Position numbers and translations under genes: made by a program. Positions 19,348-26,024 of a DNA stretch of 64,000 nt are shown here, one piece after another; the first letter of the stretch is position 1; every line of letters begins with the position of its first letter. The notes beneath the pieces are model-generated. The model saw only the letters and a list, made by a program, of their open reading frames with translations. It did not search any database and was not told the origin of the DNA. The stretch is from an uncultured Caulobacteraceae bacterium (lineage in GTDB: Bacteria > Pseudomonadota > Alphaproteobacteria > Caulobacterales > TH1-2), in NCBI GenBank assembly GCA_937967425.1, contig CALBST010000301.1, positions 1 to 64,000 on the forward strand. The letters run 5' to 3'.

Positions 19348-20597
19348 GAACGACGCTAGCTGCTCTTGTTCTCGCCGCGGCGCTTGTAACGCCCGCCGCC
19401 GCCGAGACCGTCCTTATCAATAACGGCCGTATCGTCACCAATGGCGCCGGCGGCATCATTGAGAACGGCGATGTTCTGATCGTCGATGGGCGCATCAGCG
19501 CTGTCGGCGCCAACATCAACGCCCCGCGCGGCGCACGGGTGATCGAAGCCAACGGCGCGTTTGTCACGCCCGGCGCCTTTGCCGCCATGAGCGAGGTGGG
19601 CCTCTCGGAAATCTCCGGCTCCGGCGCGCCCAACGACGCCAATGTCAGCGGCGACCTCATTTCTGCGGCCGCTGACGCGGGCCGCGCCTTCAACCCGAAT
19701 GTCACCGCCATTCCAGTGACCCGGATTGAAGGCGTCACCCGCGCCGCGATCGCGCCATCCGCCAATGGAAGCATTTTCGATGGCCGCGGCGCGCTGGTCT
19801 CCATGAGTGGCGAGCCCGATAGCGTGTTTCGCGAACGCGCCTTCATGGTGGTCGAACTCGGTGAAACCGGCGCAGGCCGCACTGGCGGCTCGCGCGCAGC
19901 ACTTTGGCCTGCGTTCGAAGCAGCGCTCCGGGACGCACGCGAATACCCGACGCGCTATCGCAGCGGCCAAGGCGGCGCCGTGCTCAACGAAATCGACGCC
20001 CAAGCGCTGCAGCCGTACGCGCGCGGCCAGGGCTTATTCCTCGTCAACGTCGAGAGCGCCGCCGACATTCGCCGCCTGATCCGCTTCAAACGCGCCAACC
20101 CAAGCCTGCGCTTCGTCATCCATGGCGGCGCCGAGGCCTGGCAGGTGGCCGACGAACTCGCGCGCTCCGGTATCCCGGTGATCCTCGATCCGCTGGCCAA
20201 TCTGCCGGATCGCTTCGAGCGTCTTTCGGCGCGCCTCGACAATGCAGTGCTGCTGAATCAAGCGGGCGTCCGCTTCGCCATCGCGCCGGGCCCAGGCTCC
20301 GTCGATGCGCATCAGGCGCGGCTTGTGCTGCAGCTCGCCGGCAACGCGGTCGCCAACGGACTGCCGTGGGACGTGGCTTTCGCCGCTGTGTCGCGCACGC
20401 CGGCGGAAATTTTCGGCGCCAGCAATCTCGGCCGCCTCGAACGCAATTACATCGCGGACGTGGTGATCTGGGACGGCGACCCACTGCAAGTGACCTCGGC
20501 GCCGACGGCTGTGTTCATCGAGGGCGTGCAGCAATCGCTCACGTCACGCCAAACCCAGCTCCGCGACCGCTACAACCCGCGCAATCGCCAGCGCTAG
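19344..20597 (+). CDS. secreted amidohydrolase-like protein lacking metal ligands
   Basis: 417 residues with a Sec signal peptide (cleavage near AAA-ET, residue 20). It has the small beta-sandwich plus barrel pattern of the amidohydrolase family and ends with the usual ADVVIWDGDPL block. At the position of the HxH motif, however, it reads TPGAFAAMSEVG, with no histidine, and no HSD motif appears late in the barrel. It is therefore probably a non-catalytic partner of the preceding gene, whose TGA its ATG overlaps. Amidohydrolase pairs of this kind, one complete and one degenerate, suggest a heteromeric complex; that is inference. Confidence 0.8.
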   Translation: MRTTLAALVLAAALVTPAAAETVLINNGRIVTNGAGGIIENGDVLIVDGRISAVGANINAPRGARVIEANGAFVTPGAFAAMSEVGLSEISGSGAPNDANVSGDLISAAADAGRAFNPNVTAIPVTRIEGVTRAAIAPSANGSIFDGRGALVSMSGEPDSVFRERAFMVVELGETGAGRTGGSRAALWPAFEAALRDAREYPTRYRSGQGGAVLNEIDAQALQPYARGQGLFLVNVESAADIRRLIRFKRANPSLRFVIHGGAEAWQVADELARSGIPVILDPLANLPDRFERLSARLDNAVLLNQAGVRFAIAPGPGSVDAHQARLVLQLAGNAVANGLPWDVAFAAVSRTPAEIFGASNLGRLERNYIADVVIWDGDPLQVTSAPTAVFIEGVQQSLTSRQTQLRDRYNPRNRQR

Positions 20598-20609
20598 AGA
20601 TAGAAGCAA

Positions 20610-20630
20610 CCCCGGCGCGCATCGCCGGGG
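20610..20630. terminator. hairpin between converging genes
   Basis: CCCCGGCG-CGCAT-CGCCGGGG forms a perfect 8 bp stem with a 5-base loop, extended weakly by flanking AGC/GCT. It lies 12 bases after the second amidohydrolase stop and before the end of the gene on the opposite strand. There is no long T run on either side, so it is a plausible but not textbook terminator. Confidence 0.6.
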
Positions 20631-20648
20631 CTGCTTCCTCCCGGCCGC

Positions 20649-21700
20649 TTACCCCCCGCGCGCGGCGCGTATTTGCGCGACAATCGCTGCGTTGAAGCCA
20701 CGCGCTGCCCGCAGCGCCAGCTCTTCATACTTGTCCGGATCGGCGCTCACAGTGTGTGCGCTGCGCCGCGCCGATTGCATCGGGGCGCCGAGAATGCCGG
20801 AGATTGCAGCAATGGCGTTATTGTTGCTCGCACCGGTCTGGACCATGGAGGCGAACTCGTCGTCGACGGCGGAGGCTGATGGCACTTGTAGCGTCGCCCA
20901 ACCATCGAAGAAACCACGCCCGCTGCGTGAGAAGAACACTTCGACTTTCGACATCGGATCGACCGAAAAGCGCGCGCCGCCCTCGACGTTGGCGCGATTG
21001 CCGAAGGAGCGATTTCCGCTCCCGGAGGTCTCAACGAAATCCAGCGCAAGGTTCGGAAACAGTAGAATGGCGTTCAACTCGTGGGAGATAGCCCCCATGC
21101 CGCTGCCGCCGCCGACCGCGAGCCTTCCGACACCCTGGTAGCCAACGGCGCCGACGCCCTCGGGACCGACAACAGCGAGTTCGCTTTGCGTCCCCGGCTC
21201 TTCGCCTTCGAACGCGCCGCCATTGGCGAGAAAGTTCGCGCCGCGTCCGTTTGCAAACACCTCCGGCGCAGTGCTGACTTCATAACCGGCCGCGCGCAGC
21301 TGTGAGACCAAGTCATCGTGCGCGAGTGTGGCGATCCGTTCTAGACGCGCACGGTCGATGCCTTCGAGGACAAAGTCCATACGCGCCGTGCGCCCATACT
21401 ATTGCCGAACAGGCTGCCGCCGCTGGAGGCCGTAACGCGCGCGTAGGTGAATGCGCCGATATTGTAGCCCATCAGCGCAATGCGCGGCATGGCGCTCAAC
21501 ACGTTGGCGTTGCCGCGTGTGCGCCGCATCTCGACCGCAAACGGCGGCCCGGCCGGGGGAGCGGAAGCTTCGATAGCGGCTGGGGCCTCAACCGCTGCCG
21601 CCGCCTCCTGAACCGCAGGCGCTTCCATATCCTGGGCATAGCTCGGCGAACCCGCCGCGAACGCGAGAATAGCCAAGGCTCCAAAAAGAATGCTTCTCAT
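20649..21700 (-). pseudogene. secreted protein of unknown function, interrupted by a frameshift
   Basis: Two overlapping - strand reading frames join into one protein. The first (21341-21700) has a signal peptide (MRSILFGALAILAFA...SYAQ), an Ala/Pro-rich linker and the block IALMGYNIGAFTYARVTASS. It then loses sense after GGSLFGNSMGAR. The second frame (20649-21380) continues with MDFVLEGIDRARLERIATLAH and runs 243 residues without its own signal peptide or ribosome-binding site. The shift of one base lies near 21375-21400. The combined product would be about 345 residues, exported, with a Gly-rich middle. I recognise no named family. Either the gene is broken or the base is a sequencing error. 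Confidence 0.7.
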
Positions 21701-21765
21701 CTTCGCACCTCCTGGCGCGACGCTAGGAAGCTGGCCGGCGGGTGGGCGCCCCTGAATGGTGGGGG

Positions 21766-23610
21766 TCAGCGTGCCAGAGCCGAAACGATCTCCGTCGGGT
21801 GCGAGAGAAAAAGAAACCGTCCGCCGTCATTCAACCGTCGAAAGCGTGCGTCCGGCATCAGACGCCGCCAGTGCTTTTCGGCATGGTCGGATGCGTGAAG
21901 CGGGTCATGGGCGCCAAACAACATGCGCCAGTTATCCGAACGAACGCCCCGAGCATTAACGGTGGGTTTGGCAAGCGCCTTTTGCTCCGCGATGAAGCCC
22001 TCAACACGGCCGGCAGCGAAATGGCGGACCGCGCGCTGGTAGTCGTGGACGGCGGCTTCGTCTTCGAACGCCGTGAGATCGGGCGGACTTGATTTCAGTG
22101 CCTGCCGGAGCAGCCGCGCCACGCGGGCGGAGGTCGCTTCGCCCATGATGATGCGCGCGAGAAACGTTGCGCGGTCAGGATGCAGAACGATCGCGTCGGT
22201 GATTGCAGTCAACATCCCGGGCCGCGTTTGCGCACCCTCGACCGGCGTGTCTGGATTGAGCGCGACGACGACGCCTACCCGATCCGCGTGCTCTCGCGCG
22301 AAGACAAGCGCCGTGTATACACCGCCGCGCGCTACGATATCGATCCGCTCGAGATTGAGGTTTTCGCACACCGTCGCCATGTCGCGGGCTGCCGCCTCGA
22401 ATGGATCTTCGCTGCCATGCATGAGGTCGCTCACGCCGAAGCCGGGCCGATCAATCGAGAGCGGGCGAAAACCCGCGCGCTGCAGCGCCCACACAAACGA
22501 GCGCGACACGTGCCGTGTCGTCGAACTCGAATGCAGCACGCAGACCGGGCGACCGTCCGCCGGCCCATAATCGCTCACCGCGATCATGCCGCCCGTTGGC
22601 CGTGGGATCAGCCGCAGCGGTTCTGCTTCTTCTGAAGCTGGGGCCAACTCGCCGTTTGAAACTTGTGTGAGAATCCCCAGCGCCATCGTCTCGGTGACGA
22701 GCCGGCTTAGCATCTGCGCCGATGACACGCCGGTGATCTGATAGATGCGGTCGATCTCATCCTTCGTGACGGAGTCACTGGCGCCGGCGAGGCGGCCGGC
22801 GTCGCGACGCGGTAAACCGCGCGCAATTGCTAAGGCGATGCGAGCCTGACGATCGGACAAGCCGAACGCGTCGATCAACAATGCGGGGTTGCTGGCGCTC
22901 GTCGGCCAATAGCCCAGCGCCGTTGTCGCCACCCGTGACACCAGCGCCGCTTGTTTTCGAACGCCGACTTTCCGCATGGCGTCCGCCAAGGTGCGGCGCG
23001 CTGTCGAGTCGCGCACGCCCACGGCGCGCGCCGCGGCGGTGAGCCCGCCCGCGGGCACGAGCGCCGCCACCAGCCGCGCCTCGGCCGGCGTGAGCCCATA
23101 GGCGGCGGCGGCGCGCGCCAGCACCGGCCCTGCGCGCGACGGGCAGACCGCCACGACCGCAACGCTTGCGGCGCCATTTTGAACTGCGGCTTTTACCTCA
23201 GGCGGCAACGCCCAGTTCAGCGCCCGCGAACTGGCGGCGTAGGCGATTGAAGTCGGCGCACCGTCCGCTGCGATCGTTCGCTCGAGGCTCACACTACGGC
23301 GGGTGGCGACGCTCGCCGCGAGTGCGGGGTCGACAGCGTCTTGCCCGAACCAGGCGTCAAATCGCGTGTCGCTCGCGACAACAGCGCCGCGAGCATCCAA
23401 TGCGGCGGCGGCAATGAGTTCGGGAAGTGCAATCGGGCTTGGCGGCGGCATCGCGTGCGCGATGCTCTCAAGTGTTCGGTCGAAAAGGGGACCGGCCTTC
23501 CGCGCCAGCCGCAACACCGCTTCCGGGTCTTCGACCCAGGCGTCGAGCGGGGCGCCGCGCCGGGCGGCTTCCTCAAGCAGCTCGACGGTTTCCTCAAAGT
23601 CTTTGCTCAC
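21766..23610 (-). CDS. HTH regulator fused to a degenerate alpha/beta-hydrolase domain
   Basis: 614 residues. Residues about 1-165 resemble a sensor-like N-terminal region. Two LuxR-type helix-turn-helix regions follow (about 170-228, YGLTPAEARLVAAL, and 249-305, FGLSDRQARIALAIARGL). From about 338 to the end it has an alpha/beta-hydrolase fold (VCVLHSSS, DRPGFGVSD, IDIVARGG, LFGAHDPLH, LSHP). The nucleophile elbow reads ARGGV (427-431), with Gly429 where serine is expected, and the late GH motif reads GGR (596-598). Only the acid Asp569 remains. The hydrolase part is probably a ligand-binding sensor rather than an enzyme. It is transcribed toward the frameshifted gene and divergently from rpsB. 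Confidence 0.75.
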   Translation of the reverse strand: MSKDFEETVELLEEAARRGAPLDAWVEDPEAVLRLARKAGPLFDRTLESIAHAMPPPSPIALPELIAAAALDARGAVVASDTRFDAWFGQDAVDPALAASVATRRSVSLERTIAADGAPTSIAYAASSRALNWALPPEVKAAVQNGAASVAVVAVCPSRAGPVLARAAAAYGLTPAEARLVAALVPAGGLTAAARAVGVRDSTARRTLADAMRKVGVRKQAALVSRVATTALGYWPTSASNPALLIDAFGLSDRQARIALAIARGLPRRDAGRLAGASDSVTKDEIDRIYQITGVSSAQMLSRLVTETMALGILTQVSNGELAPASEEAEPLRLIPRPTGGMIAVSDYGPADGRPVCVLHSSSTTRHVSRSFVWALQRAGFRPLSIDRPGFGVSDLMHGSEDPFEAAARDMATVCENLNLERIDIVARGGVYTALVFAREHADRVGVVVALNPDTPVEGAQTRPGMLTAITDAIVLHPDRATFLARIIMGEATSARVARLLRQALKSSPPDLTAFEDEAAVHDYQRAVRHFAAGRVEGFIAEQKALAKPTVNARGVRSDNWRMLFGAHDPLHASDHAEKHWRRLMPDARFRRLNDGGRFLFLSHPTEIVSALAR

Positions 23611-23747
23611 GGCCGCTTCTTGCCCAGCGAACGTGACGGATTCCAGCTATGCGCTTGTCTTTGTGTGAGGTTCCGCCTACATGCCGCTCTCACTTCGCAC
23701 GCGGGAGCGGCGGGGCGGTCTGAAAGCGGCCGTTTCCTCCATCCGGT

Positions 23748-23782
23748 CCTAGGACGAAATTCCTACGGGGATTTGGCCTAGG
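23748..23782 (+). ncRNA. structured rpsB 5' leader hairpin (candidate autoregulatory element)
   Basis: An outer stem CCTAGG (23748-23753) pairs with CCTAGG (23777-23782). After a small internal loop an inner 7 bp stem AAATTCC / GGGATTT (23757-23763 with 23768-23774) closes a UACG tetraloop in the very stable C(UACG)G form. The element ends 37 bases before the rpsB start and has no following T run, so it is not a terminator. Ribosomal protein leaders of this kind often bind the encoded protein; here the binding to S2 is inferred, and it is not a match to a family I can name. Confidence 0.5.
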
Positions 23783-23819
23783 TCTCTTCCGCGGCGGCAA
23801 ACCGGAAAAGGAACGATAC

Positions 23820-24635
23820 ATGGCGCTGCCTGAATTCAGCATGCGTCAGCTTTTGGAAGCTGGCGCGCACTTTGGTCACCAGACCCACCGTTGGAATCCG
23901 AAGATGGACCGATACATCTTCGGCGAAAAAGCCAACATCCATATTCTTGATCTGTCGCAGACGGTGCCGCTGCTGCACCAGGCGCTGTTGAAGGTTCGCG
24001 AAGTCGCCGCTGGCGGCGGCCGCGTGCTTTTCGTCGGCACCAAACGTCAGGCTGCAGAACACATCAAAGCTGCCGCGCAGCGTTCGGCCCAATACTACAT
24101 CAACCAACGTTGGCTCGGCGGCACGCTGACCAACTGGCAAACGGTCTCGAAGTCGATTGCGCGCCTGCGTGAAGTCGAAGCCATCATCCAAGGCGGCGGC
24201 GTCGGTCTCACCAAGCGCGAAGTGCTGAACCTTCAGCGTGAACGCGACAAGCTCGACCGTTCGCTCGGCGGCATCGCCTCGATGGGCGGCGTTCCGGACC
24301 TGATGTTCGTGATCGATACCAACAAGGAAGCGATTGCGATTCAGGAAGCCAAGAAGCTCGGCATCCCGGTTGTCGCGATCGTCGACTCGAACTGCGATCC
24401 GGACGCGGTCACGTACCCGATCCCGGGCAACGATGACGCCGCGCGCGCGATCCAGCTCTATTGCGACCTGATCGCTGACGCGGTGCTCGATGGTCTCACT
24501 GAAGGCCAAATCCGCGGCGGCCGCGACATCGGCGCCTCGGAGAGTCCGCCCGTTGAGGCGGCTGTGGCTCGCGAACGTCCGCCGTCCGGCCCGGTCGAAA
24601 GCCCGATCGATGGCCCAACGGGCGCGAACTACTAA
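23820..24635 (+). CDS. rpsB: 30S ribosomal protein S2
   Basis: 271 residues. The start [22 protein letters not shown] and the blocks [31 protein letters not shown] and [15 protein letters not shown] are those of S2, a small-subunit protein added late in assembly and needed to bring S1 to the ribosome. A clear AAAAGGAA precedes the ATG. The C-terminal 35 residues are a Pro/Glu-rich tail, as in other Alphaproteobacteria. tsf follows 32 bases later in the classic rpsB-tsf operon. Confidence 0.98.
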
Positions 24636-24667
24636 ATAACTGACGAGAGAAGTCTCAGGAGTAAGAC

Positions 24668-25609
24668 ATGGCGGAAATCACCGCTGCGCTGGTCAAGGAC
24701 CTGCGCGAAAAAACCGGCGTCGGCATGATGGATTGCAAGAAGGCGCTCGCCGAGAACAATGGCGACCTGGAAGCGTCCATCGACTGGCTGCGGGCGAAGG
24801 GCCTCTCGAAGGCCGCCAAGAAGGCTGACCGCGCCGCCGCCGAAGGCATCGTCGCGATCGCTGTCGACGGCGGCCAAGCGGCGGTCATCGAACTCAACTC
24901 GGAAACCGACTTTGTCGCCCGCAACGCCGACTTCCAAAAGGCGGCCGGCGAGTTCGCCGCGCTTGCGCTCAAGGCCGGCGATCACGACGCGCTGCTGAAC
25001 GCCGCGCACGGCGGCGGCAAGGTTTCGGACTCGGTTACGAACCTCATCGCCACCATCGGCGAGAACATCACGCTGCGCCGTTCGCAGAAGCTGAGCGTCG
25101 GTAACGGGGTCGTGGCGTCCTACGTCCACGCCAAAGTCGATGGCTCGGACAATCTCGGCCGCATCGCGGTTCTGGTTGCGCTCGAGTCGAGCGGCGACAA
25201 GGCGAAGCTCGAAGCGATCGGCAAGAAGGTCGCCATGCACATCGCCTCGGCGAACCCGCTGGCGCTGACCGAAGCTGAGATCCCGGCCGATCGCGTCGAG
25301 CGCGAAAAAGCCGTGATCGCCGACACGATCAAGGAAGATCCGAAGGCCGCCGGCAAGCCGCAGCAAGTTCTCGACAAGATGCTCGAGGGCAAGATGCGCA
25401 AGTTCTTCGAAGAATCCGTGCTCACCAAGCAGGCCTTCGTCATGAACCCCGACCAAACCGTCGAAGCGGCCGTGAAGGAAGCGGAGAAGGAAGTCGGCGC
25501 TCCGATCGCAATCAAGGGCTTCGTCCGCTTCGGCGTCGGCGAAGGCGTCGAGAAGCGCGCCGATGATTTCGCCGCCGAAGTGGCGGCGATGTCGGGCAAC
25601 AAGAGCTAG
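24668..25609 (+). CDS. tsf: translation elongation factor Ts
   Basis: 313 residues. The UBA-like N-terminus with [12 protein letters not shown] and the DFVARN motif (in ETDFVARN) are diagnostic of EF-Ts, which recycles EF-Tu by exchanging GDP for GTP. The length is standard for Alphaproteobacteria. The start has AGGAGT a few bases upstream. A rho-independent terminator follows, separating the rpsB-tsf operon from the next genes. Confidence 0.98.
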
Positions 25610-25640
25610 TCCGGTTCCTGCGGGTAGCCGCAAGTCACTG

Positions 25641-25668
25641 CGCCTCCCTGGAAACAGGGGGGCGTTTT
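25641..25668 (+). terminator. rho-independent terminator after tsf
   Basis: The sequence CGCCTCCCTG, loop GAAA, CAGGGGGGCG, then TTTT forms a 10 bp stem with one T-G pair, a stable GNRA loop and a T run. It lies 32 bases after the tsf stop and would end the rpsB-tsf transcript. Confidence 0.85.
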
Positions 25669-25706
25669 GCGTTGACCCGCGCCGATCACTCGGGTGATCA
25701 CAAGTT

Positions 25707-26024
25707 GTGAGTTCGCTGAAGCCGGAAGATTATGCCGAGGATGTCTCGGTCTGTGTTCAATGCGCAGGCGGAGAAGTTTGGCTGTCGGAACGGCTGTGTC
25801 GTCGCCTGGTATGGATCGGCCAAGCCTACGAACTTCATCTGCTGCCCCTGCTCGGCGAAGACAGGACCGTGAACGCCGTCCAGGCGCAGGCGCTTGCCGC
25901 CGAACTGGCCTTTGTGGACGCAATCGTCACCGACGAGGCGCTTCAGTCCGTGCTGACCCGGCTGACGCCGGTTGTGCAGTCCAGCATTCAAACGGGCGCA
26001 GAAATCAGGTTTGAGTGGCCCTAA
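25707..26024 (+). CDS. small hypothetical protein between tsf and pyrH
   Basis: 105 residues from a GTG start. The codon use, with GC-rich third positions throughout, matches the surrounding genes. The product is soluble and mildly acidic, with a CxxC-like pair early (CVQC, residues 16-19) and several short helices rich in Leu and Val. I recognise no family. It follows the tsf terminator, so it must have its own promoter or read-through. A perfect GATCAC/GTGATC inverted repeat (25684-25699) lies just before the start. No strong ribosome-binding site is visible, so the exact start is uncertain. Confidence 0.55.

Follow-up and report, generated by a model that had tools for sequence, protein, structure and literature searches.

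A 64,000-nucleotide stretch of DNA (the window) carries on its minus strand a gene whose product joins DNA-binding domains to a hydrolase fold without the usual catalytic residues. The question raised by this locus is what role such a fold could retain when it is carried at the end of a putative transcription regulator, and whether its relatives share the same loss.

Architecture of the fusion protein

The gene and the features of its product are as follows, with residue numbers referring to the protein:

21766..23610, minus strand: fusion regulator gene, 614 aa, GTG start at 23610, TGA stop
23140..23433, minus strand: PAS-like domain, residues ~60-157, with a helical stretch (residues 3-53) in front of it
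22915..23115, minus strand: LuxR-type helix-turn-helix (HTH) 1, residues ~166-232
22681..22887, minus strand: LuxR-type HTH 2, residues ~242-310
21769..22620, minus strand: pseudo alpha/beta-hydrolase domain, residues 331-614
22513..22515, minus strand: Arg366, after the HSSS (oxyanion-region) motif
22321..22329, minus strand: Arg428-Gly429-Gly430, shortened nucleophile elbow without Ser, by alignment
21904..21906, minus strand: Asp569, acid position, kept
21817..21819, minus strand: Arg598, at the catalytic-His position
23611..23819: intergenic region common to the fusion gene and the divergent rpsB (23820+), a possible promoter region judging by gene positions

The first-pass annotation described two LuxR-like HTH regions followed by a hydrolase fold to residue 614, and both sequence and fold prediction bear this out. 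It missed the N-terminal PAS-like domain, a second candidate sensor, in which the order of strands and helices fits PAS and the structural match is weak (Foldseek E 0.017 at best, none below 0.001). The LuxR-type (GerE) assignment of the HTH domains is supported by GerE matches in 10 of 32 family members and by matches to EL222, NarL, DosR and GerE, with EL222 the best sequence match of HTH 2 (E 7.8e-9); in the window sequence itself the GerE match falls below the Pfam cut-off. HTH 1 is well conserved, with Thr203 in 119, Ala204 in 117 and Arg205 in 124 of 134 rows. The alpha/beta-hydrolase fold is well predicted for the window protein by Pfam, AlphaFold and comparison with the PDB. By sequence, the protein is not an acyl-homoserine-lactone receptor of the LuxR type, as the autoinducer-binding domain (which we take to be Pfam PF03472) is absent from the four Pfam families at E values up to 1.

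Nine full-length relatives share 58-80% identity with the window protein, and the HTH-hydrolase layout is already visible in annotation, since the database names of some proteins of the family combine both parts ('pimeloyl-ACP methyl ester carboxylesterase/DNA-binding CsgD family transcriptional regulator'). Searches of the open-licence literature found no description of a bacterial protein with this layout, in agreement with the first-pass annotation, which knew of none. The word 'hydrolase' is absent from the text of a survey of actinobacterial LuxR proteins (PMC3466318), and neither the excerpt of PMC2447327 nor PMC8770471 bears on an HTH-hydrolase fusion architecture.

Loss of catalytic residues across most of the family

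In a first alignment of 32 sequences, from which the window's own protein (P0002) was excluded, Arg428, Gly429, Asp569 and Arg598 were invariant. The family was then widened by a genome contig search, in which 80 loci were kept from 128 relatives (L001-L060 were examined, L061-L080 not as members), and further by 299 genomes of the family holding a Caulobacter genome plus 40 more stretches. Removal of 26 rows with identical ends left 137 aligned rows, and 135 were scored after two partial rows were dropped; P0002 was again excluded, as were L047 and L055, which have stops within the match.

Ser does not occur in the nucleophile column, as aligned, in any of the 135 scored relatives. The short elbow is found in 107 of them, with Arg428 in 99, and all 99 of these rows carry Asp569 and Arg598; Asp511 is also in 99, His360 in 98 and Arg366 in 89. 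In the remaining eight short-elbow rows, position 428 is H, L, K or I, with Arg598 in five and His598 in three. Outside the short-elbow group, the nucleophile column holds Asp (ARDGG) in 19 of the 135 rows: in 13 of them the acid position is a gap and residue 598 is F, L, Y, M or V, and six carry Asp569 with Arg598. In nine further rows the column shows A, V, C, H or L, with Asp569 and His598. Each of 26 added proteins, 25 being new, shows Arg428 and the short elbow together with Asp569 and Arg598; in five whole rows from kin genomes (L201-L205, duplicates possible), the elbow is again without Ser and Arg598 is retained. The protein search proposed in the first-pass annotation finds the domain order kept, and its placing of Arg598 at the His position, with Asp569 retained, is upheld by the alignment.

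Its account of the elbow needs amending. The nucleophile is indeed absent, but the alignment favours a one-residue deletion over the proposed replacement of Ser by Gly429, and a deletion is most likely how the nucleophile was lost. The position of this gap was set by MAFFT; if the missing residue instead lay elsewhere in the turn and 429 were the nucleophile site, Ser would be present in 6 of the 107 short-elbow rows, with Arg598 in four (L049, L118, L119, L127) and His598 in two (L115, L124). Judged by its residues, the window protein lacks catalytic competence: the elbow offers none of Ser, Cys and Asp, Arg598 stands in place of His, and Asp569 is retained. We infer that the hydrolase domain is catalytically inactive. 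As an alternative to a role in ligand binding, Arg598 may pair with Asp569 and so hold the fold. A normal active site built from another Ser and His is unlikely in the window protein: Ser361 is not invariant (Ser in 77 of 99), and His360 and His604 lie at what we take to be usually non-catalytic positions.

Homologues that could hold a triad are few. Within the short-elbow group, L115 (4971-6824) and L124 (320-2311) could form one, possibly regained, because Ser429, Asp569 and His598 are all present; their sister L114 has Gly429 with His598. Further out, three distant HTH-hydrolase relatives from Gammaproteobacteria MAGs (L056, L057, L060) have Ala, Val or Cys at the nucleophile and keep Asp and His, and L060, with Cys-Asp-His, might be active.

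A tree of 134 rows was built with FastTree, omitting the elbow, acid and late-motif columns, and rooted at the midpoint. A branch with support 100 has all 106 of the tree's short-elbow rows on the same side, and calling them a clade assumes a root outside them, because the rooting is by midpoint. L114, L115 and L124 form one group within the short-elbow side, where some of the surrounding forks have support below 95%.

Spread and genomic neighbourhood

Among 299 genomes of the family that contains Caulobacter (the family of G002), 75 have one to four matches each at E up to 1e-40, as expected for an expanded regulator family; at most four candidates were scored per genome, and in several of the 75 the matches are partial, confined to HTH2 plus the hydrolase. 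A class-level sample gave at least 2 matching genomes in 385 (at most three candidates scored per genome), one of them G002 itself, and 7 of 60 genomes match in the family of G687. Named hosts among L001-L055 are mainly Caulobacter, Phenylobacterium, Sphingomonas and Sphingopyxis, and a Hyphomonadaceae MAG protein (P0011) is 59% identical to the window protein over 98%. Two copies of the fusion gene lie near each other at L101 (1444-4710) and L142 (4998-10513), which suggests local duplication.

In the first 60 loci, where genes were called by a GC3 script of our own that missed some family genes, the gene of a large exported protein often adjoins the fusion gene. Pfam confirmed autotransporter beta-domains beside the fusion gene at L013, L015 and L025, RTX repeats at L003, L008, L028, L032 and L138, RsaA_NTD at L003 and L008, and passenger repeats above the cut-off at L024 and below it at L005; the surface calls at L033, L101, L152, L172 and L175 were made by our own profiles or by pattern alone. 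A gene of the autotransporter, RsaA-NTD or RTX type lies within 400 bp of 13 of 101 distinct family genes, compared with 1 of 529 control genes, in categories that were picked after looking at the first 60 loci and then counted. Among genes outside those 60 loci the proportion is 5 of 45 (Fisher p 1.4e-5), and among the rest 8 of 56. The controls were 529 non-surface genes from 32 regions of 20 kb in carrier genomes, all from the Caulobacter-containing family and at hand-set positions; neighbours of related genes are non-independent, and on one side the flank is shorter than 400 bp for 9 of the 101 family genes. For 88 of the 101, the detectors used picked up no such surface gene within this distance of 400 bp. 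L005 and L024 are outside the 13 because their beta-domain lies beyond the fetched stretch; compared by eye, their genomes carry it at a fitting place. On the tree, the surface-adjacent marks on 16 rows of 15 loci require 12 changes, so this adjacency was not simply inherited once. PEP-CTERM neighbours, Pfam-confirmed in three of the four neighbour proteins scanned, were left out of the count because the pattern also fired 15 times in the 32 control regions, and genome-wide listings of autotransporter and RTX genes, incomplete at 70 and 52 of the 75 genomes respectively, were not used in the counts. In three kin genomes, at L201 (5712-9077), L206 (7186-10616) and L207 (7126-10518), the gene immediately before the fusion gene, in the same orientation, encodes a HAMP-HisKA-HATPase histidine kinase.

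No surface-protein gene was found beside the fusion gene at the window's own locus, where the neighbours, named by eye from their translations, are dnaE, two amidohydrolases, the divergent rpsB, tsf, pyrH and frr. The next gene on the same strand (20649-21700, minus) has an exported-looking product. It seems frame-broken, through error or a real break, with a start in 21341-21700 and the remainder in another frame (20649-21380), and the latter piece, when scanned, had no Pfam match. In a synteny comparison over the retrieved stretches of 207 loci, controls included, nothing matched dnaE, the second amidohydrolase, rpsB, tsf, pyrH or frr of the window, or either piece of the exported-looking gene; the first amidohydrolase had two short matches, one of 59 residues in the control region L179 and one of 69 residues in L145. 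The comparison draws on loci with genomic sequence; the closest orthologues (P0003-P0010) are represented by their protein sequences alone. An Rfam scan of 20500-26000 gave nothing at the gathering score, and the region 23611-23819 holds only short or imperfect repeats, which may be due to chance.

A putative sensor derived from an enzyme

Several known proteins resemble parts of this layout. EL222 carries a light-sensing LOV domain at its N-terminus in front of a LuxR-type HTH, and it differs from the window protein in having no hydrolase domain. The alpha/beta-fold hydrolase 9wlv from Microlunatus sagamiharensis consists of a hydrolase chain of 290 residues whose elbow reads GWSGGG. VqmA, a PAS-LuxR HTH quorum-sensing receptor, has neither a second HTH nor a hydrolase domain, and it compares with the window protein at a high rmsd (7.6-9.2 Å) and a Foldseek E of only 0.017-0.13.

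The first-pass annotation drew a parallel with the plant gibberellin receptor GID1. This holds in so far as GID1 uses an alpha/beta-hydrolase fold as a receptor without reported enzyme activity, and RsbQ and D14 are likewise alpha/beta-hydrolases in signalling. To our knowledge, GID1 itself is not a DNA-binding protein, nor are RsbQ and D14 fused to DNA-binding domains. At the level of residues the parallel is loose: as described in the excerpt of PMC3436726, GID1A keeps Ser116 and Asp289 and has only its His replaced (Val319), whereas the window protein has no elbow Ser, and it also lacks the full Ser-Asp-His triad given there for RsbQ and D14. GID1 is further described in that excerpt as working with DELLA proteins (PMC3436726). 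In a structure comparison against the whole PDB, GID1, D14 and RsbQ were not named among the 50 matches listed and may be present further down. The likeness to GID1 is an analogy of use and not kinship.

The fusion noted in the first-pass annotation is real and more than chance, and the interpretation placed on it is plausible. The domain order, the conserved catalytic loss, the distribution of the family and the enrichment of part of it beside surface or secreted genes are direct observations. The dead hydrolase domain is best read as a sensory or partner-binding module of a one-component regulator. With a probability of roughly 0.58, we consider the protein to be a one-component transcription regulator in which the nucleophile-less pseudo-hydrolase domain is most likely sensory, binding a small, possibly anionic molecule and changing the arrangement of the HTH domains. 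One chain would then both sense and bind DNA. HTH proteins are typically dimers, and two HTH domains in one chain, expected from their family to bind DNA, could reach a longer or asymmetric DNA site. The PAS-like domain would probably serve in dimerisation and/or sensing, given its weak structural resemblance to VqmA. The hydrolase domain would no longer hydrolyse, with conserved charged residues kept at the old active-site motifs. On the simplest reading these motifs line a binding pocket, in which Arg428, Arg598 and Arg366 would favour an anionic ligand; no support was found for the lactone or ester signal suggested by the first-pass annotation. Its proposal of a one-protein switch is borne out as far as DNA-binding domains and a triad-less hydrolase-derived domain share one chain, with the loss conserved. 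The strong conservation of a site incapable of its usual chemistry argues for a retained non-catalytic role, and the same loss, kept across most of a large family, suggests that the dead enzyme is probably a gene-switching sensor.

It is rather unlikely that the dead hydrolase domain is instead a structural, dimerisation or protein-protein module without a small ligand, leaving any sensing to the PAS-like domain. Such a domain is present in the window protein, and the excerpt of PMC8284805 describes the PAS domain of VqmA as needed for dimerisation and ligand sensing; however, several of the most conserved residues of the family (His360, Arg366, Arg428, Asp569, Arg598) sit at the old active-site motifs, which would place them in the pocket and not on the outer surface. 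We regard it as improbable that the domain is still an enzyme of unusual chemistry, active in parts of the family. The Asp-elbow rows, the Ser429, Asp569 and His598 of L115 and L124 and the Cys, Asp and His of L060 would suit such an enzyme, but 13 of the 19 Asp rows combine the acid-position gap with the lack of His598 and the other six pair Asp569 with Arg598, and among the 99 short-elbow rows that carry Arg428, His598 is absent and Ser429 occurs in four. An artefact, in the form of two genes joined by error or a decaying pseudogene, is very improbable indeed. One 47% relative (L206, at G687:C1:950191-951865) is split over several frames, with one break near elbow residue 430 and a possible sequencing error, but the same domain order occurs in full-length relatives from many separate genomes (27-80% identity in the first alignment), and a conserved full-length family already speaks against this explanation.

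Returning to the sensory reading, some family members may regulate the surface- or secreted-protein genes that adjoin them. A broader proposal, which we put forward only tentatively, is that Caulobacterales and Sphingomonadales share a class of one-component receptor that is widespread and undescribed. In this class a hydrolase pocket may have been disabled once by deletion of the nucleophile, taken over for the recognition of an anionic small molecule, joined to a PAS and double LuxR unit and multiplied into paralogues, some of which would control autotransporters, large adhesins and S-layer-like proteins. The size of the family makes it open to testing, with many natural versions of the dead site to compare: a short elbow, Asp in place of the nucleophile, and either Arg or His at 598. 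The surface-protein neighbours of some members could serve as a readout. If the dead hydrolase domain does bind a ligand, bacteria would have a parallel to the way in which plants made a hormone receptor out of a hydrolase, with DNA binding in the same protein.
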